Translations under genes and position numbers: made by a program
Part shown: in pieces, positions 8,291-32,592 of the stretch
Numbering within the stretch: position 1 is the stretch's first letter
How the letters are laid out: every line of letters starts with the position of its first letter
Assembly: GCF_000010325.1 (NCBI RefSeq)
Contig: NC_009662.1
Span: forward strand, 1,198,501-1,262,500
DNA: 64,000 bases
Source of the DNA: Nitratiruptor sp. SB155-2
GTDB taxonomy: Bacteria; Campylobacterota; Campylobacteria; Campylobacterales; Nitratiruptoraceae
Direction of reading: 5' to 3'
Notes under the pieces: generated by a model
Told to the model about the DNA's origin: nothing
The model's database searches: none
What the model saw: only the letters and a program-made list of their open reading frames with translations

Positions 8291-10957
8291 CTACTTTAAA
8301 TCTCCCCAGTTACGGGCTATCTGAACAGAACACTCTATTGGTACGTTCAAGGGATGGATGGTCTGCATAATCTGTTTAAATTCTTCGGCCAGCTCCTGAG
8401 CTTGATTCTCTTGTACTTCAAAGATGAGTTCGTCGTGTATCTGGAGCAAGATTTTCGCTTCCAATTGTTTTTCATCGATTACATTTTTTATCTTGTTCAT
8501 AGCCATTTTGATCAAGTCCGCTGCACTGCCTTGGAAAACTGTATTTGTCGCCTCTCTCAAATATGCCGCCAATTGTGCGCCGCTTGCATGTGCAAAATCA
8601 AAATATCGCCTTCTTTTCAAAAGCGTTTCAACATATCCGTGTGTTTTTGCAAAATTTTCGACCGATTCAAGATAACTTTTCACCGTTGGAAAAGATGCAA
8701 AATAACTCTCAATTATGGCTTTTGCCTCTTTCGTAGATATACCAAGTGTCTCAGCAAGTTTTCTGCTGCCCATACCATAAATAAGCCCGAAATTGATACT
8801 TTTGGCAATATTTCGTTTCTCTTTCGCATGCTCTTTTCCAAAAAGTTTTATTGCAGTTTCCATATGGATATCTCGACCCTTTTGAAAAGCTTCGAGTAAT
8901 GCCGGGTCTTTGGAAAAGTGCGCAAGGAGTCTCAGCTCTATTTGAGAATAGTCAATACCGATCAGAAGCCTGCCCTCCCCAGCAATAAAACCGTATCGGA
9001 TTTTTCGTCCAAGCTCTGTTTTTATAGGAATGTTTTGCAAGTTTGGATTTTTGCTTGCCAATCTTCCTGTAGCAGTTCCCGTTTGAATAAAACTTGTATA
9101 GATTCTATGCTTCGGATCTCTTTTGGCATAGTTTATCAACGGATCGATATAGGTACTTTTGAGTTTGTACAGTTCACGATACTCTAGAAGCAAAGGAATG
9201 ATCGGATGTTTATCTTTGAGTGCCTGTAATGTCGTTTCGTTCGTACTGTATCCCGATTTTGTCTTTTTGAGTGGCGGAAGTTTCAATTTTTCAAAAAGAA
9301 TTGCCGCAAGCTGTTTTGTAGAGTTGATATTGAATTCGCCTCCTGCATACTCATAAATCTTTTGTGTTATTTCATCAATTCTTTTTTCAAGCGAGCTCTT
9401 CAGTTCTTCAAAAAATGGTATGTCGATTTTGATTCCGGCTTGCTCCATATGAATAAGGGTATTGACAAAGGGAAACTCCACCTTTTTGGCTTCATCGATC
9501 AAATGGGATGCTCCCTGTTTACGCAGAGCATCGAGGAGTTTGAAATAGACCATGTATGTGATGACAGCATCTTCGGATGCATACTTGCAAGCTGCATCGA
9601 TAGAGACTTGTGAAAAGTCCTCCCCTTTTTTGACCGTCTCTTTGTAAGCGATCATATCGTGATCTAAAAACCGCTTTGCAACGCTCTCAAGTCCTACACT
9701 GCTTCCAGGATCTACAAGCCATGCCAGTATCATCGTATCGACTATATCTTTTTTCTCATCGATTCCATATCGGTAGAGCAGTGAGAGATCAAATTTGAGA
9801 TTGTGGCCGATAATAGTGTGTTCAAAGATTTTTGAAATGGCTTCCAGTGCTTTATCCAGGCCAACTTGATCACCTACGCCAAGATAGTTGTGCCCTATGG
9901 GCACATAATAGGCTTTTTCCTCGCTGTATGCAAAACTAAAACCCACCAAATTCGCTTTTTTGGTGTCCAAATCATCTGTTTCGGTATCAAACGCAACCAG
10001 CGCACCCTCTGGGATTGATTGGATAGCTTTGATCAGTTTATCGTAGGTATCGAGACAGATGGCTTCAAACTGTACACTCTGTTTTTTTGATTGCTGCAGT
10101 GGTGCAGCCTTTATTTTTCGAAGTATTGCGGTAATATCATAATCAATCAGCTCGTCCGCTATTTTTATGATAGGATTGATGGATGGCAGATGAAACTGTT
10201 GCAAATTGCAATGATCGAATACATTCTCGTCAAGTTCCACCAACTTTTTACTCAAAAATGCCTTCTCTTTGCCCTCAATAAGGAGTTTTTTAATCCTCTC
10301 TGGCTTCACCTCATCCAAATGTTCATAAATCCCTTCCAAGGAACCAAACTGCTCTAAAAGTTTCACCGCCGTTTTGGGACCTATACCCTTGACACCCGGA
10401 ATATTGTCGGCACTGTCTCCGACTAATGCCAGATAATCTTTGATGAGCTTTGGAGGAATACCAAACTTCTTTGTAGCCTTTTCTTCGTCAATCTCCTCTT
10501 TTTTTATCGGGTCATACAGAACCACTTTCCCATCATCAATGAGCTGATACAGATCTTTATCGTGGCTCACAATTTTTACTTTGATCCCCTGCTCTTTTGC
10601 GCATTTGACAAGAGAAGCGATAATATCATCGGCTTCAAACCCCTCTTTTGCCAACGTCTTAAATCCCATCTCTTGAATCCATTTGATGGCAACGGGAAGC
10701 TGCATTTTTAATTCTTCTGGAGGTTCCGGTCTTTGCGCTTTATACTCTGAATCGATTTTCGCTCGAAAACTAGGACCCTCACTATCTAAAGCAAATACGA
10801 TGTAATCGCTTCTTTCTTCACTCACTAATGAGTTTATGAAATTGATAAAACCGGTTAAAAGACCTGTCGGAAAACCTTTTTTACTTTTGAGTGGTGGTAA
10901 AGCGTAGTAACTTCGAAAGAAAAAGCCAAATGTATCAATGATGGTCAGTGTCTGCAT
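8291..10957 (-). CDS. polA: DNA polymerase I with both exonuclease domains
   Basis: The 888-residue enzyme fills gaps and removes RNA primers. Domains in order are the 5'-3' exonuclease (residues about 1-290, with FEADDIIASL and VGDSADNIPGVKGIGPKTA), a 3'-5' exonuclease (about 300-500) and the polymerase (about 510-888, with DYSQIELRLLAHF, KSINFGLIYGMG and QIHDELIFEV). All three exonuclease motifs look intact (DTETD, IGHNLKFD, YASEDAVITY), so proofreading is predicted to be active. In some bacterial PolA proteins this domain is degenerate. The start has AAGGG upstream. It is divergent from the small exported gene at 11008. Confidence 0.96.
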   Translation of the reverse strand: MQTLTIIDTFGFFFRSYYALPPLKSKKGFPTGLLTGFINFINSLVSEERSDYIVFALDSEGPSFRAKIDSEYKAQRPEPPEELKMQLPVAIKWIQEMGFKTLAKEGFEADDIIASLVKCAKEQGIKVKIVSHDKDLYQLIDDGKVVLYDPIKKEEIDEEKATKKFGIPPKLIKDYLALVGDSADNIPGVKGIGPKTAVKLLEQFGSLEGIYEHLDEVKPERIKKLLIEGKEKAFLSKKLVELDENVFDHCNLQQFHLPSINPIIKIADELIDYDITAILRKIKAAPLQQSKKQSVQFEAICLDTYDKLIKAIQSIPEGALVAFDTETDDLDTKKANLVGFSFAYSEEKAYYVPIGHNYLGVGDQVGLDKALEAISKIFEHTIIGHNLKFDLSLLYRYGIDEKKDIVDTMILAWLVDPGSSVGLESVAKRFLDHDMIAYKETVKKGEDFSQVSIDAACKYASEDAVITYMVYFKLLDALRKQGASHLIDEAKKVEFPFVNTLIHMEQAGIKIDIPFFEELKSSLEKRIDEITQKIYEYAGGEFNINSTKQLAAILFEKLKLPPLKKTKSGYSTNETTLQALKDKHPIIPLLLEYRELYKLKSTYIDPLINYAKRDPKHRIYTSFIQTGTATGRLASKNPNLQNIPIKTELGRKIRYGFIAGEGRLLIGIDYSQIELRLLAHFSKDPALLEAFQKGRDIHMETAIKLFGKEHAKEKRNIAKSINFGLIYGMGSRKLAETLGISTKEAKAIIESYFASFPTVKSYLESVENFAKTHGYVETLLKRRRYFDFAHASGAQLAAYLREATNTVFQGSAADLIKMAMNKIKNVIDEKQLEAKILLQIHDELIFEVQENQAQELAEEFKQIMQTIHPLNVPIECSVQIARNWGDLK

Positions 10958-10981
10958 GTTAGCCCTTGTAAGAATCTTGTG

Positions 10982-10987
10982 TATAAT
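10982..10987 (+). promoter_or_regulatory. Candidate -10 box for the small exported gene
   Basis: TATAAT lies 20 bases before ATG 11008, between polA and the divergent gene. No clear -35 box is visible. Confidence 0.45.
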
Positions 10988-11007
10988 TTTACAAAAAAAG
11001 GATAGTG

Positions 11008-11334
11008 ATGCGTATGCTCTTGCTTGCAGCTCTTTGTTTTACAACTCTTTTTGCAGACTCTTTTCGTCAACAGGAGATAAAGAAAGTCGACTCGGTCATA
11101 TCGATTTTACAGCAAAGAATCATTTGCATGCAAAAATCAAGCGGAAAAGAGTGTTTGAAAAAATATCCACTTGATCCAAAAAGCGATACGAGTGATAAAG
11201 TCTTTCTAATGAGTTTTCCACAAAGCTTCTACGAAGCAAAACTACACCGATCTATTAATCAACTTCAAAAACAGAAAATCTGTATAGGAAAATCATTAAC
11301 AAAAAAAGAGCTCAAGAAGTGCTTTACGCAATGA
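11008..11334 (+). CDS. Small exported protein of unknown function
   Basis: I do not recognise this protein. From ATG 11008 it is 108 residues with a clear signal peptide (MRMLLLAALCFTTLFADS), so the mature form of about 90 residues should be periplasmic. It is helical and Lys/Gln-rich, with Cys in CMQKSSGKECLKK, a further Cys in QKICIGKS and one in KKCFTQ at the end. These even-numbered Cys could form disulfides. ATG 11008 is preferred to GTG 11005 because AAAGGA is then five bases away. It runs divergently from polA and overlaps the HDOD gene tail-to-tail by about 11 bases. Confidence 0.7.
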   Translation: MRMLLLAALCFTTLFADSFRQQEIKKVDSVISILQQRIICMQKSSGKECLKKYPLDPKSDTSDKVFLMSFPQSFYEAKLHRSINQLQKQKICIGKSLTKKELKKCFTQ

Positions 11335-12132
11335 TGGACCGTAACTCTTCCACAGCTTTTGCCAAAATCCCAACGCTCAAGCCATTCTTTTGTGCAATAT
11401 TTTTCGCTATCGTTACACTTGTATCATCCAAAGGCTTATTGATGGGAATTGCTCTTTTGACAATATGCAAAGCCAATGACTCTTCAAAATAGGTATCAGC
11501 CTTTTCATATTTATCTGCATACTCTATTGACAAAACAAGCTCTTTTTCAAAACCCAATAATCAAACATGGCTCCTGTTACTTCAGATGCGCTGGCACCCA
11601 CGAAACTCTTTTCCACATAGGCTACATCATTAGTCATTTCGATCTCGGACCGAAAAGGATAGACCATATCCTCTTGAATGATAATGTCAGCAATAACGAT
11701 TTTTCCAAGCTCTTGCAAAAAGGCGGCCAGTTTTAAAAAACGCGCCTTTGCAGGATTGTGCTTTTTATACCACAGCTCCATCAGTTTCGACTGCATATGT
11801 GAAATGTGGGCAAATCGCTCCGCAGTAATGCCATAAGGTTCCATGTCTATGTTGAAAAGCTTTTTGATCGAGTTTTGCATAACGATTGATCGTACTTCCT
11901 GTATTCCCAGATAGGAGACCGCTCTACCTAAATCCTCGATTTTTTCTCTCAAACCATAAAAAGAGGAGTTGACATATTTCAAAATATCGGCAACGAGCAT
12001 CGGATCTCTTTGCAATATTTCGACAACTTCCTCCAGATCCACATCCTCTTTACCAACCGCTTTTTCAAACTCATCGATCGTTTTTGGTAGTGGAGGTAAT
12101 GATCTGATCCTCTTTATCAAGTCATCTTTCAC
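11324..12132 (-). pseudogene. HDOD-domain signalling protein, frameshifted
   Basis: The upstream part (12132 to stop 11524) has the HDOD fold start: LPPLPKTIDEFEKAV, DPMLVADILKYVNSSFYG, AVSYLGIQEVRSIVMQN. It then runs out of frame after GAMFDYW. The remaining 70 or so residues, GFEKELVLSIEYADKYE onwards, lie in another frame ending at 11324. Adding one base in the run at 11549-11555 (minus GGGTTTT) joins them into a 269-residue protein of normal length. HDOD proteins are catalytically dead HD-domain relatives tied to cyclic-di-GMP, motility and stress signalling; the exact role here is unknown. The gene overlaps the 3' end of uvrA by 11 bases. A mutation or a sequencing error are both possible. 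Confidence 0.8.
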
Positions 12133-27653: not shown

Positions 27654-29006
27654 TTATTCATTCTTTTGTAATTGTTTTACTATCCAGTTGGTATTGATAA
27701 TATTGAAAACCTCATCATGATAGTCAACAGTTCCTTTGATAAAATGATCTTTTTGAGATAAAACGATATAAACATCATCTTTTGGTACTTGAATAATCTC
27801 GTCAATATTGCCTATAAGCAATGCAAAGTCAAACAGTTTTCCATCCAAATCTGTTTGTATTATAAGAATCAATCGTTCCCCTTTTTGAATTTCCCCTTTT
27901 TCACTTGCCAAATATTCTAAGTCAAAAAGAAGATAACTTCTTGAATCTATAGCAACAATTCCTTCAATGCCCTCTTTATGTTCTAAAGATCTTGTAATGT
28001 GAACATCCTGCTCTTCATGGATACCCTTTATATATTCCATTTTTATAGCAAAACGATCTCCATCCACTCTAACAATTAAAAACTCTTCATATTCAGTTGT
28101 TCCCCTTGAAACTTCATCCTTATTATTTGATGTAATGCCATATTCTTCAATAAGTTTTTCCAAGTATTTATTGTCAATAATAGAAATAATTTGGTTGTGA
28201 TAGATAAAGAAACGATTTAGAATCTCCTCACCCCTTGCAATATTGATATGTTCTGTTTGTATATTAACAATATTAAGAATTTTTCCAACTGATAATCCCA
28301 GGTGAAGATTCTCTTTTTTTAAGATAAAAATATTTTCACCTAGTTGTTTATCAACATGTAACAGTTTTCCTAAATTGACAATGTGCAATAATCTATTTTT
28401 AACTAAATAAACTCCTTCAATAAACTCCTCTTTTGGAATATAAACCCCTTTTTTTGCATCCTCAAAGACTTCAACAAATTGTACGATAGAAGCATCAATG
28501 GCAAATATCTCTTTCCCAAGTTTAAATAGAATCAAACTTATCTCATCTTGTGTTGTTTCAACTACACTTTGTAAAAGTTTGTCTTTTTGTTTTTGAAATG
28601 TTGGTTTAATAGTTGGAACATCTACATTACTATAAAAAAAATCCTCTTTTAAAATTTCCACGACTTCTTCATCTAGATTGATTACCTCGATTTTGTCATT
28701 ATTATATTTAATATGCTCAATCTCTTCTATCTTATGTATTTCATCTATAAGAATCGCAAAGTCTTTATCTTTAATGCTCAAGATAATAGCACTTTTATTC
28801 TTTATATCGCCACATTCCCCAAGTTTCAAAATTTTTTTGAGACAAACTAAAAAATAGATATCACCATTTTGTTTAATTTCTCCTACTATATACTCGGGCA
28901 TAAATTCTACATCATACACTTTTTCTACATCAACTATCCATTTTACATTGTCTACATTGACACCAAATATAGAATCGTTAACTTTAAATGTACATACCGA
29001 AACCAT
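27654..29006 (-). CDS. Protein of three tandem CheW-like domains
   Basis: The 450-residue protein has no membrane segment. It reads as three CheW-like folds: about 1-125 (VCTFKVNDSIFGVNVDNVKW, YFLVCLKKILKL), 155-290 (ILFKLGKEIFAIDASIVQFV, LLHIVNLGKLL) and 306-448 (FLIVRVDGDRFAIKMEYIKG, YLLFDLEYLA). CheW couples chemoreceptors to the kinase CheA. The usual consensus in the third strand is weak in all three copies, so partner specificity probably differs. Its ATG overlaps the stop of the double-MCP gene as TAATG, so the two products are likely made together. Lys/Ile/Glu-rich AT-biased codons set it apart from neighbouring genes. No CheA, CheR or CheB is in the window. Confidence 0.85.
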   Translation of the reverse strand: MVSVCTFKVNDSIFGVNVDNVKWIVDVEKVYDVEFMPEYIVGEIKQNGDIYFLVCLKKILKLGECGDIKNKSAIILSIKDKDFAILIDEIHKIEEIEHIKYNNDKIEVINLDEEVVEILKEDFFYSNVDVPTIKPTFQKQKDKLLQSVVETTQDEISLILFKLGKEIFAIDASIVQFVEVFEDAKKGVYIPKEEFIEGVYLVKNRLLHIVNLGKLLHVDKQLGENIFILKKENLHLGLSVGKILNIVNIQTEHINIARGEEILNRFFIYHNQIISIIDNKYLEKLIEEYGITSNNKDEVSRGTTEYEEFLIVRVDGDRFAIKMEYIKGIHEEQDVHITRSLEHKEGIEGIVAIDSRSYLLFDLEYLASEKGEIQKGERLILIIQTDLDGKLFDFALLIGNIDEIIQVPKDDVYIVLSQKDHFIKGTVDYHDEVFNIINTNWIVKQLQKNE

Positions 29007-30886
29007 TACTCTTCTCCAGACAATACTGATGCAATCTCAAAAAGTTTTGCAGAGAGCTCTTTCATATCCCGACTAATCTTTAAGATAATATTTGCCGCTT
29101 CTCTCGACTCTGAAGCATTTTTGTGAGAAATATTTGCCGCTTCTAAAATCTGTTCTGCAGCAATTTTACTCTGTTCGAGAGCTTGAAAAATATGTTCAAC
29201 TCGTGTCACACCTTTTTCCACAGCTTCTAAAACTTTGATGAGGTTCTCTTTATTATTAGCAAGCTCATACTCTATACGATCTAGTTTCTCATTTTCTGCT
29301 CGCTGAGTCAAAATGATATTATTGACTAACACATTGATTTGATCATTCTCCTCTTTTACTTTATTAATTGTCTTGATAACTTTATCTAGATTCTCTTCTG
29401 AACTATTCGCAAGCTCTTTTATATCGCGGCTAACTTCACTAAAACCATTGCCAAATTCACCTGCTCGTATCGCCTCTACCGAACCATTGATAGAAAGGGC
29501 AGAAATTTGAACAATGGAGAGCTCAATTTTACGAATCATATCGTTAAGTGCATTGATTTTTGAATTAATAAAATCGAGAGCTGGTATTACATCTTCAGAT
29601 GATTTGGTATTCTCTAATGCCATAGATTTTATTTTTTTAAGATCTTGTATAACACCTTCAAATATTTGATCGATTTTTTTGATGTTTTCAAAAAGTTCAT
29701 GTAACAAATCTTTTGCACGGGCTGCTTCTTGCAACGTTTGATGTGCCACTTGTTCCGCTTTTTTAGCATCTTCTTTAGCAATATTGGCTGCCTCTTCTAT
29801 CTGTTCTAAAGCTTCAACAGTCTGTTCCATCGAACGTTCAATCTCCTCATTGGTACTTGTGAGCTCTTCTGAAGCAGAAGCCAACTCATCCACAACAGCT
29901 TTTTTATCGTTTCCTTCCAACTTATCGACAAGATTCTTGATCATTTTCGCTGCAACTTCTGCTTGTGCAAAGGCTTCAACCTGCTGTGAGATTGTATTAG
30001 TGATCTCACTGACTGCACTAGCACTCTCTTCAGCAGCACTAGCAATAATTTCCGCACTTCTATGTAGAGCATTTACCTCTTTTGCCGTTCGTTTCACTGC
30101 ATCCACAACAGTTAATGTCAGTTTGTTTGATTCTTGAATTAGATTCATGATATAGTGCATATTATTTGAGCTGTCAAGAGCAATTTTTTCCGCTTCCTGC
30201 ATCGAAGTATGGAGTTTATTCATCACATCTTTTGCTACGCCAATCTTTTCTTGCGTTATTTGAACAATATCTTTAATGTTAACAACGTATCTATTGGATT
30301 TTGATGCAATCTGACGGATTTCAGAAGCCATAATGGTGAAGCTTTTTCCTTTTTCTTTTGCCCTTGCAGCTTCTATCGCTGCATTAAGAGCTAACAAAGA
30401 GGTTTTTTTCGCAAGTTTTGTAATCAAGTTAACTGCATTATCTATCTCTTTAGATGAATCATATAATATATTTGCTTTATTGGCTATCTCTTCAGCTAAA
30501 CCTGCCGTAACACGCATTTTTTCTTTATCTTCCAATATACTTTGATTTGCACCCTTTATGAGTTCCATAAATTTTTCAGAAATATCTAAAATAAGATTGC
30601 TATCATTTTCTAATATTTGTGCGTTTTTATTAATCTCATCTATTGCACTTAGACTCTCCTCAGCCGCCCCTGCATTCTCTTCTGCTGCTGCGGCAATTTG
30701 TTCCATCGTCCCTTTTATCTCTTCGATAGCTGCTAAACCATCTGCAGTTCTCTCATTTAGTTTTTGTGCTATCTCTTCAATACTTGCAGTATTCAGATCC
30801 AAATCTAAACCATGCTTATCACTTTTTTGAGTATTTTTCTCTTCAACAGACATCTGTTTGTCTAAGTGTTTTTTGATAAAACCCAT
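29006..30886 (-). CDS. Soluble protein with two tandem MCP signalling hairpins
   Basis: The 626-residue protein lacks signal peptide, membrane helices and any recognisable sensor or HAMP domain. It is almost wholly coiled coil. Two receptor tips are visible. Tip 1, about residues 160-198, reads TSLLALNAAIEAARAKEKGK then FTIMASEIRQIASKSN. Tip 2, about 459-497, is degenerate but clear: ISALSINGSVEAIRAGEFGN then GFSEVSRDIKELANSS. Matching coiled-coil arms flank each tip (61-85 with 279-302; 334-370 with 564-605). Tips of this kind bind CheW and CheA. The gene has a strong AAAGGAG and lies 18 bp after the PAS-GGDEF-EAL gene, coupled to the triple-CheW gene. How it senses anything is unknown. A scaffold or cytoplasmic signalling role is inferred. 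Confidence 0.88.
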   Translation of the reverse strand: MGFIKKHLDKQMSVEEKNTQKSDKHGLDLDLNTASIEEIAQKLNERTADGLAAIEEIKGTMEQIAAAAEENAGAAEESLSAIDEINKNAQILENDSNLILDISEKFMELIKGANQSILEDKEKMRVTAGLAEEIANKANILYDSSKEIDNAVNLITKLAKKTSLLALNAAIEAARAKEKGKSFTIMASEIRQIASKSNRYVVNIKDIVQITQEKIGVAKDVMNKLHTSMQEAEKIALDSSNNMHYIMNLIQESNKLTLTVVDAVKRTAKEVNALHRSAEIIASAAEESASAVSEITNTISQQVEAFAQAEVAAKMIKNLVDKLEGNDKKAVVDELASASEELTSTNEEIERSMEQTVEALEQIEEAANIAKEDAKKAEQVAHQTLQEAARAKDLLHELFENIKKIDQIFEGVIQDLKKIKSMALENTKSSEDVIPALDFINSKINALNDMIRKIELSIVQISALSINGSVEAIRAGEFGNGFSEVSRDIKELANSSEENLDKVIKTINKVKEENDQINVLVNNIILTQRAENEKLDRIEYELANNKENLIKVLEAVEKGVTRVEHIFQALEQSKIAAEQILEAANISHKNASESREAANIILKISRDMKELSAKLFEIASVLSGEE

Positions 30887-30904: not shown

Positions 30905-32592
30905 TTAATGTATTTCAGGCCGTCCAAAATAGAATCCTTGAAAAATGTCTACTCCAATTTCTTCAAGAATTTGCAACTGCTCTCTTGTCTCAACGCCTTC
31001 TGCAACAACTTTTAAATCAAAAATGTGACCAATTTTTGTTATTGCTTCAACTATTGCATAATCATTAGAATTATCGACAACATTTTTTACAAATATTTTA
31101 TCGATCTTAAGTTCAGCCAATGGTAATGTTTTCAAATACTCAAAGGAAGAAAAACCTGTACCAAAATCATCGATACTAAACGAAATACCGATATTTTTCA
31201 ATTGTTTTATTTTGCTAATAGCTTCATCTATATTTTCCAGCAATATATTTTCTGTTATTTCAAAGATGAGATTATTAGGATTTATGTTATATTTATTTAT
31301 TATGTTTATAACTCTTTTAACAAATAAATCATCTTCAAACTGTTTAGGACTAATATTGACAGAAATTTTTTCATTATATTTTTGAAGATACGAACAGACT
31401 TTCTGTAATATATATGAACCAATTTCTATGATCAAACCATTCTCTTCGGCTATAGGAATGAATTTATCTGGAGGAATAATCTGTCCATTTAGTTCCCATC
31501 GAACAAGAGCCTCATATCCTACAACAACAGGAGTTTGATTTTCTAATCGCACCTTTTTTTGAAAAGCTAAAAAGAACTGATCGTTTTTAAGCCCCTCTTT
31601 GATTTTTTCTTTTATTTTGCTTTTTTCTTTCAATGTTTTAAAATATTTGGAATTAAAAAAAATAATACGACTTTTTCGATTCTCTTTGGCATTATATAAT
31701 GCAATATCTGCTTGTCGCAACAATAATGCAATATCCAAATTTGGTTCAATCAGTGCAATGCCAATACTAATTGTGATATTAATTTCTTGATCATCAATCA
31801 CATACAGTTTTTCCAACTCTTTTTTTAATCGCCCAGCGAAACTAGAACTAAAAATGCGGACTTTTTCTCTATCTTTTTCTTTTAAATCACAAAAAAGAAG
31901 AAATTCATCACCTCCGACTCTTGCTATCAAAGACTCTTTTCGAACAGTAGTTTTTAGTCTCTTGGCAATCTCTTTTAAAAGAAGATCTCCCACTTCATAT
32001 CCACGAATCTCATTGATCTCTCTAAAATTATCAATATCAATAAAAAAAAGTGCACCATATAAAGAATGGGTTGAATAATAAGGAAAGACTTCTTGAATAA
32101 ATTCCAAAAAATACTTTCTATTATAAAGACCTGTTAAAAAATCATAATTGGATAGAAAATCGATCATTTTATCTTTTTCAACAATTTCAGAAATATCGAA
32201 AATGGCAACCATGCGTAAAGGTGTATCCCAAAGCTGAATACTTGTACCTTTAACCAAAATCCAAGCACTTGTACCATCTCTTTTTTTAACCTTTACTTTG
32301 TAGGGTTTTTTATATTTTTTTTTATATTATTTTGAACAGTTTTTTTACAATTTGCAGCAACAAAATCATAGATACTTTTACCAACAAGCTCTTTTTTACT
32401 ATATCCCACTATATTAGCGGCACTGCTATTGGCATATAAAATCATTCCACCGATTTCTATGAAAATAATTCCTTCGAATATATTTTCGAAGAAATTGGCG
32501 ATATACTCTTGAAGTTGCTGATCGATAGTTTGCAACGTATTCAAATCCTTAAATAAAATATTTTCATTCATAAACATAAATGAAAAAATCAT
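30905..32592 (-). pseudogene. PAS-GGDEF-EAL cyclic-di-GMP enzyme, frameshifted in the PAS domain
   Basis: The first frame (32592 to stop 32293) carries an N-terminal helix and half a PAS domain (NIFEGIIFIEIGGMILYANS, IVGYSKKELVGKSIYDF). One extra A in the six-A run at 32306-32311 continues into KPYKVKVKKRDGTSAWILVK and the rest of the PAS, giving 562 residues. GGDEF follows (LYNRKYFLEF, IARVGGDEFLLF), without the RxxD inhibitory site. The EAL domain is complete (GYEALVRW, NISPKQFED, FEITENIL, DDFGTGFSSFEYLK, VVAEGVET, QGFYFGRP). Both catalytic motifs look active, so the restored protein could make and degrade cyclic-di-GMP. It is first in the AT-rich signalling operon. Confidence 0.82.

Follow-up and report, generated by a model that had tools for sequence, protein, structure and literature searches.

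The window, by which we mean the whole 64,000-nucleotide stretch of the Nitratiruptor sp. SB155-2 genome analyzed here, carries a gene pair (dosM and cheW3) that is the second of two kinase-less loci of chemosensory class F9 in this genome and that probably specifies an array scaffold and sensor hub no longer regulating CheA in the classical way. We infer this from the lack of an F9 CheA or CheY gene at the locus, the presence of one CheA in the genome, and the loss of a Glu–Arg pair from all three CheW domains. Well-understood chemosensory arrays act by controlling CheA; if our reading is true, arrays can do something else. In the clade to which the locus belongs, selection maintains the components of the array and, in many cases, the enzymes of adaptation, whereas the kinase gene and mostly the tuning residues are gone. 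This clade offers a natural test of two questions: whether the Arg62–Glu38 bridge serves signaling rather than assembly, and whether an array can pass its signal straight to cyclic-di-GMP. What is new here is the comparative part, i.e., the clade, its residue losses, the damage to CheB, and the adjacency of cyclic-di-GMP genes.

A three-domain CheW protein and a double-tip receptor

The open reading frame of cheW3 (copy A; 27654..29006, minus strand) begins with ATG and encodes 450 amino acids. Its product matches the Pfam CheW family (PF01584) in three stretches, with 108 bits for the whole protein. When the whole window genome (one contig, 1,877,931 bases) was searched, the three domains (residues ~2-127, ~155-289, and ~306-448) appeared as separate matches of 53.8, 34.1, and 35.3 bits, all above the gathering score of 23.5 bits; a fourth match (23.8 bits) spans domains 2 and 3 and is not an extra domain. 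The AlphaFold2 model (18 rows; mean pLDDT = 81.6, pTM = 0.57) consists of three alike beta-rich units beginning at about residues 2, 155, and 306, with linkers of pLDDT <50 at 144-153 and 294-303, so that the spacing of about 150 residues given in the initial annotation is correct. All 18 PDB matches of this model at E <= 0.001 (Foldseek) were to CheW, CheA, or their complexes. Profile scores, model, and structural matches thus agree on the three CheW-like folds that the annotation had claimed, all three segments (not one or two) scoring as CheW in the per-segment check that it had proposed. Its description of a weak consensus is borne out by the scores above, against 103.9 bits for the single CheW of the genome. 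The predicted fold of the units is the same as that of single-domain CheW from E. coli and T. maritima (PDB 2ch4, 6s1k, 2ho9), but the window protein has three units per chain, none of them with both the Arg62 and the Glu38 equivalents.

The partner gene, dosM (copy A; 29006..30886, minus strand), shares one base with the frame of cheW3 and encodes a double-tip receptor of 626 amino acids with two MCPsignal stretches (Pfam), which supports the annotated coupling to a two-tip receptor. AlphaFold2 predicts four long helices (33-175, 180-322, 328-474, and 481-622, of 143, 143, 147, and 142 residues), with tips at ~176-179 and ~475-480 and a break at ~323-327; Foldseek returned only MCP models and long-helix look-alikes. 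On the minus strand, the order is a PAS fragment (32293-32592), a GGDEF-EAL frame (30905-32257), dosM, and cheW3, followed by a recO-like gene on the opposite strand. No kinase gene adjoins the pair. A profile search of the locus found no CheW or HATPase match nearby except cheW3 itself, and reading of the ORFs found no CheY-like gene from 18 to 40 kb of the window and no cheBR at the locus.

Relation to class F9

DosM and CheW3 are the marks of class F9 (Mo et al. 2022; PMC9321776). The annotation had implied an unstudied oddity; the F9 papers, however, describe this pair in V. cholerae (PMC7534058) and Nitratiruptor (PMC9321776), and the architecture of triple CheW plus two-tip receptor is therefore already known. 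The annotated interpretation is thus partly supported: the window protein is a true three-CheW adaptor, coupled to a two-tip receptor with no adjoining kinase gene, and may be the stoichiometric linker suggested there, but the pair is not the unstudied oddity that was implied. In V. cholerae, F9 is cluster I, with DosM (VC1403), the triple CheW (VC1402), and CheA (VC1397); its array is reported to be double-layered, cytoplasmic, and 35 nm high, with DosM spanning both layers, and CheA is not essential, arrays without it still forming in smaller number (PMC7534058). Compared with this published description, the window locus likewise has a double-tip receptor and a concatenated triple CheW, but it has no F9 CheA or CheY gene, lacks the salt-bridge residues in CheW3, and has a PAS-GGDEF-EAL gene upstream. 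CheA proteins with three CheW domains have been reported (PMC10542144); the available text of that paper and of PMC7666581 does not describe CheW3.

Mo et al. (2022) reported F9 as partial in 8 and full in 64 of 2781 species, the partial clusters of two Nitratiruptor species and one Nautilia having dosM, cheW3, and cheBR without cheA or cheY (PMC9321776). The window locus has two features of full F9 (two tandem tips in DosM, and CheW3 adjoining it) but not the third, its own CheA and CheY in the cluster. Its genes and organism group are those of the partial form, to which it very probably belongs; it differs from the published partial clusters in that cheBR is not in the cluster but at the second copy in the genome, on the facing strand. 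The terms 'GGDEF', 'c-di-GMP', and 'diguanylate' are absent from the main text of PMC9321776, and we found no mention of a loss of CheW coupling residues in the available text of that paper. Literature searches for multiple CheW domains and for chemosensory systems with CheW and GGDEF but without CheA returned nothing.

By analogy with V. cholerae F9, DosM and CheW3 are expected to form the core of a double-layered cytoplasmic array, in which the DosM tips would be the receptor heads and CheW3 the base plate, its CheW domains occupying positions otherwise held by the P5 domain of CheA. In the kinase-less clade, CheW3 would fill the base plate alone, with DosM holding the two layers, and methylation enzymes (for the window, those of the sister locus) would tune the array. 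That cyclic-di-GMP enzymes read or feed it is speculation from gene order.

The second copy and the single CheA

The second copy (locus B, L011) has cheW3 at 8743-10047, following a double-tip receptor gene at 10050-11942. Facing them on the opposite strand are cheB, a gene encoding 180 aa, and cheR. The two CheW3s are 27% and the two DosMs 44% identical, and the DosM tree places the two receptors in separate regions; we therefore rejected a recent duplication as the origin of the two copies. The copy-B DosM lacks four residues just before the conserved ALNAAIEA of its first tip, a gap shared by both of the other copy-B genes encountered (L030 and L032).

CheW matches in the genome are limited to the two triple proteins and to the CheA, CheW, and CheV of one further cluster (L012). 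The genome has one CheA match, in a cluster other than either F9 locus, its HATPase being among 18 HATPase matches. A single CheA match was likewise found in each of 11 same-family genomes checked (12/12 with the window genome) and in 3/3 f16 genomes. Exactly one match at E <= 0.01 was found in 20/24 further genomes, the exceptions being G543 (a second match below the cut-off, inside its DosM), G459 (two), G461 (three), and G453 (no match; a metagenome draft). Three kinase-less genomes (G457, G459, and G461) encode, in addition, a CheA as long as those of F9 (914-924 aa), so full and kinase-less F9 may share one cell there, which weighs against the scaffold reading.

A solitary CheA is what would be expected of a hybrid array, in which the one CheA of the genome (class F14; Mo et al. 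2022) is recruited by DosM and CheW3 and relays their signal to CheY and the flagellum. Mo et al. suggested that partial F9 borrows an F14 or F3 CheA, but reported no residues mediating that interaction (PMC9321776). We consider such recruitment unlikely, given the residue losses described below.

A kinase-less clade in two phyla

The comparison rests on several searches: CheW3 at E <= 1e-12 (matches in 14/149 genomes of the order); the second DosM tip at E <= 1e-20 in the phylum, where at least 16/397 genomes matched among the best eight or fewer candidates scored per genome (six kinase-less by scores and loci, ten full-class); the same tip search in Aquificota (28/136 genomes; the phylum of G452 by the label of L050); and 21 loci taken from named contigs. 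Having dropped duplicates (L033, L034, L035, L037, L055), a locus with no CheW3 (L065), and three that are not F9 (L077, L103, L104), we retained 35 kinase-less and 33 full-class loci (L038-L044, L066-L076, L088-L102). The DosM core was found in 32 of the 33 full-class loci; the exception is L076, which comes from the same genome as L038. We counted L038 and L039 as full-class: G030 has a CheA of F9 type on a different contig (L076), and G044 (L039) has two CheAs, neither adjoining L039 and at least one (L077) not F9-like.

None of the 35 kinase-less loci has cheA in the fetched stretch, six of these stretches (L045, L054, L056, L060, L086, L087) ending at contig ends, which further supports the annotated interpretation on this point. 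A pattern search of the genome contigs with the two CheW3 proteins found no relative. A quick maximum-likelihood tree of 60 DosMs has a branch (SH-aLRT 99) that separates all 32 kinase-less proteins from the rest, the root being at midpoint and the program having warned of long branches meeting. Their loci are labelled Nitratiruptoraceae, Nautiliaceae, Sulfurimonadaceae, other Campylobacterota, Hydrogenothermaceae, and Desulfurobacteriaceae; a neighbor of the window protein in the DosM tree, L045, is labelled Nitratiruptor. At the first tip, 20 of 23 aligned kinase-less rows read K-K/R-T-S/G (KKTS in the window) vs. DQTN in the four aligned full-class rows, all from Campylobacterota; L051 reads KRIS, and the copy-B proteins L011 and L032 are without these four residues.

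A quick tree of 78 domains (25 CheW3s plus three others) grouped them by position in the protein (5 label changes in total; minimum 2, shuffled mean 35.9). This tree was the check that the initial annotation had proposed on internal duplication vs. separate origin: the triplication is old, and recent copying inside the window protein is rejected. The domains of four full-class CheW3s (L043, L088, L092, L102) cluster apart from all others, so that the tree does not establish a single origin of all CheW3s.

A few loci depart from the common layout. In L062 and L064, the hairpin turn of the second DosM tip is four residues longer and its usual GExGxGF pattern is lost. In L066 and L073, DosM adjoins CheA and a CheW-like protein of ~260 aa instead of CheW3. 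Directly before dosM, the full clusters L040, L041, L044, L067-L072, L074, and L075 have a gene of 135-162 aa, identified as PAS by Pfam in L040, L041, and L044 and from its resemblance to these in the remaining clusters. Its product is a candidate sensor for DosM, which has no sensor of its own. Its place is held in the window by the PAS-GGDEF-EAL gene.

Loss of the Glu–Arg pair

Arg62 of CheW bonds Glu38, and the R62A protein keeps its affinity for receptor and CheA and impairs chemotaxis, the bridge being reported as needed for the function of the signaling complex, not for its assembly (PMC3828127). We cut 61 CheW3s (29 full-class, 32 kinase-less) into domains and aligned them. Arg occupies the R62-equivalent position of domains 1, 2, and 3 in 16/29, 29/29, and 29/29 full-class proteins, respectively, vs. 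0/32, 8/32, and 6/32 kinase-less ones; Glu occupies the E38-equivalent position in 15/29, 29/29, and 29/29 vs. 1/32, 7/32, and 13/32. The window protein has N, K, and D at the first position and W, F, and G at the second. Most kinase-less CheW3s have thus lost residues reported to matter for signaling rather than assembly, and the absence of both from all three window domains argues against the recruitment of a CheA. Three observations weigh against an uncoupling from CheA: all seven Sulfurimonas-type kinase-less CheW3s retain Arg in domain 2; both residues are often absent from domain 1 of full F9 as well; and in the single CheW of the window genome the Arg is present while Lys replaces the Glu, which shows that not every CheW needs the pair.

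Pfam scores also differ between the two groups. Seven full-class CheW3s scored 65.5-92.3, 67.2-95.4, and 100.3-117.8 bits in domains 1 to 3, whereas ten kinase-less ones scored 45.2-71.3 in domain 1 and 33.6-56.0 in domain 3, and their domain 2 scored 34.1-60.1 in seven, 13.7 in one, and had no match in two. Within these two sets, the proteins' mean pairwise identity was lower in kinase-less than in full-class proteins for domain 3 (0.312 vs. 0.362) but higher for domain 1 (0.365 vs. 0.298), so constraint seems to have shifted between domains.

The CheB receiver

All five residues of the CheB receiver pocket are present in 25/25 full-class and 17/27 kinase-less proteins, and the pocket is damaged in 10/27 vs. 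0/25 (Fisher's exact test ignoring kinship: P = 7e-4); the catalytic His is kept in 52/52. Damaged pockets occur in Nautiliaceae (L036, assigned by tree, L052, L053, and L054), in Aquificota (L051, L083, L084, L085), and in other Campylobacterota (L059, L061), and speak against a hybrid array there. The CheB of the window genome, at locus B, has a complete pocket, as have 17/27 kinase-less loci overall, so such systems may still receive phosphate from a CheA, as a hybrid array would have it. Class F3 CheBs are reported to be without a receiver by nature, though F3 has a kinase (PMC9321776), so receiver loss alone proves little and supports kinase independence only partly. Among kinase-less loci, cheB lies on the facing strand in L011, L030, L032, L051, L083, L084, and L085.

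Cyclic-di-GMP genes beside the array genes

The GGDEF-EAL part of the PAS-GGDEF-EAL gene (30905..32257, minus strand) lies 18 bp upstream of dosM and has the GGDEF, EAL, and DDFGTG motifs. Alignment with relatives places its PAS part in another frame (32293..32592, minus strand), a change of frame close to nine consecutive A (~32315-32323) dividing the gene. The gene is uninterrupted in G036 (557 aa, same place) and, by BLAST, in G148 (550 aa); the break in the window may be a sequencing error, slippage, or real.

A gene for GGDEF and/or EAL adjoins the dosM/che genes in a same-strand run (gaps of up to 250 bases) at 16/35 kinase-less loci, vs. 4/40 ordinary MCP loci (4/51 same-strand neighbors; Fisher's exact test ignoring kinship among loci: P = 6e-4). 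It lies upstream of dosM in the window, L031, L046, L062, L083, and L084, and after cheR in L047, L048, L050, L059, L078-L082, and L087 (L087 counted from gene tables, the script having found no complete DosM there). Where Aquificota loci have the gene after cheR (nine loci), its frame overlaps that of cheR in L048, L078-L082, and L087, seven in all, and the gaps are 6 bases in L047 and 3 bases in L050. When CheW3s were clustered at 40% identity, 6/9 clusters held such a gene. The GGDEF and EAL profiles used to score adjacency derive from proteins encoded at these loci, and the same profiles were run on test and control regions. The latter comprised 40 regions of 8 genomes, hand-picked MCP matches mostly outside cheA clusters, with most G461 and all G458 MCP matches left out, and among the four control positives, L106 and L112 appear to represent a single gene from a pair of species.

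This adjacency, together with the overlapping frames and the motifs of the window copy, would fit an array that is tuned by CheR/CheB methylation and controls the GGDEF-EAL enzyme of its own operon, a possibility that we regard as less likely than not and that is compatible with the scaffold reading. Against it, the full class also has such a gene in the run at 6/32 loci (in five with one or two genes intervening), so that kinase-less loci are not alone in the link, and neither Nautiliaceae, nor locus B, nor most Sulfurimonas-type loci showed an adjoining GGDEF/EAL gene. The window copy is interrupted, and the GGDEF motif is changed in L059 and in all three of the Aquificota copies inspected (L047, L048, L050, with ETL, EAL, and EAL, respectively, as their EAL motifs); in addition, the loci lack independence, and each of 21 genomes contains 10-41 GGDEF domains. 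The fuller proposal of a kinase-free array, which would retain tips, CheW3 base plate, and CheR/CheB, have lost its coupling to the kinase, and be read out by the cyclic-di-GMP enzymes of the same operon, is in our view doubtful. In L083 (8496-15148), an EAL-only protein overlaps the start of dosM by 68 bases and is preceded by a GGDEF-EAL gene.

Selection on the window genes

The loss of the kinase and the response regulators, the low Pfam scores, and the interrupted PAS-GGDEF-EAL gene would all fit a functionless, decaying remnant of full F9. Comparison with G036, however, gave dN/dS of 0.059 for cheW3 and 0.060 for dosM (0.018 for the comparison gene gltB), i.e., purifying selection on both, and the frames are open in two phyla with shared tip changes. 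We therefore rejected the remnant on dN/dS as highly improbable, and retain the scaffold and sensor hub as the best reading of the window locus.

Between the window genome and G036, dS was 1.3-1.9 at the window locus, far above the 0.5 of nearby gltB and the 0.15-0.34 of locus B, so the two genomes may hold copies of the window locus with a longer separate history.
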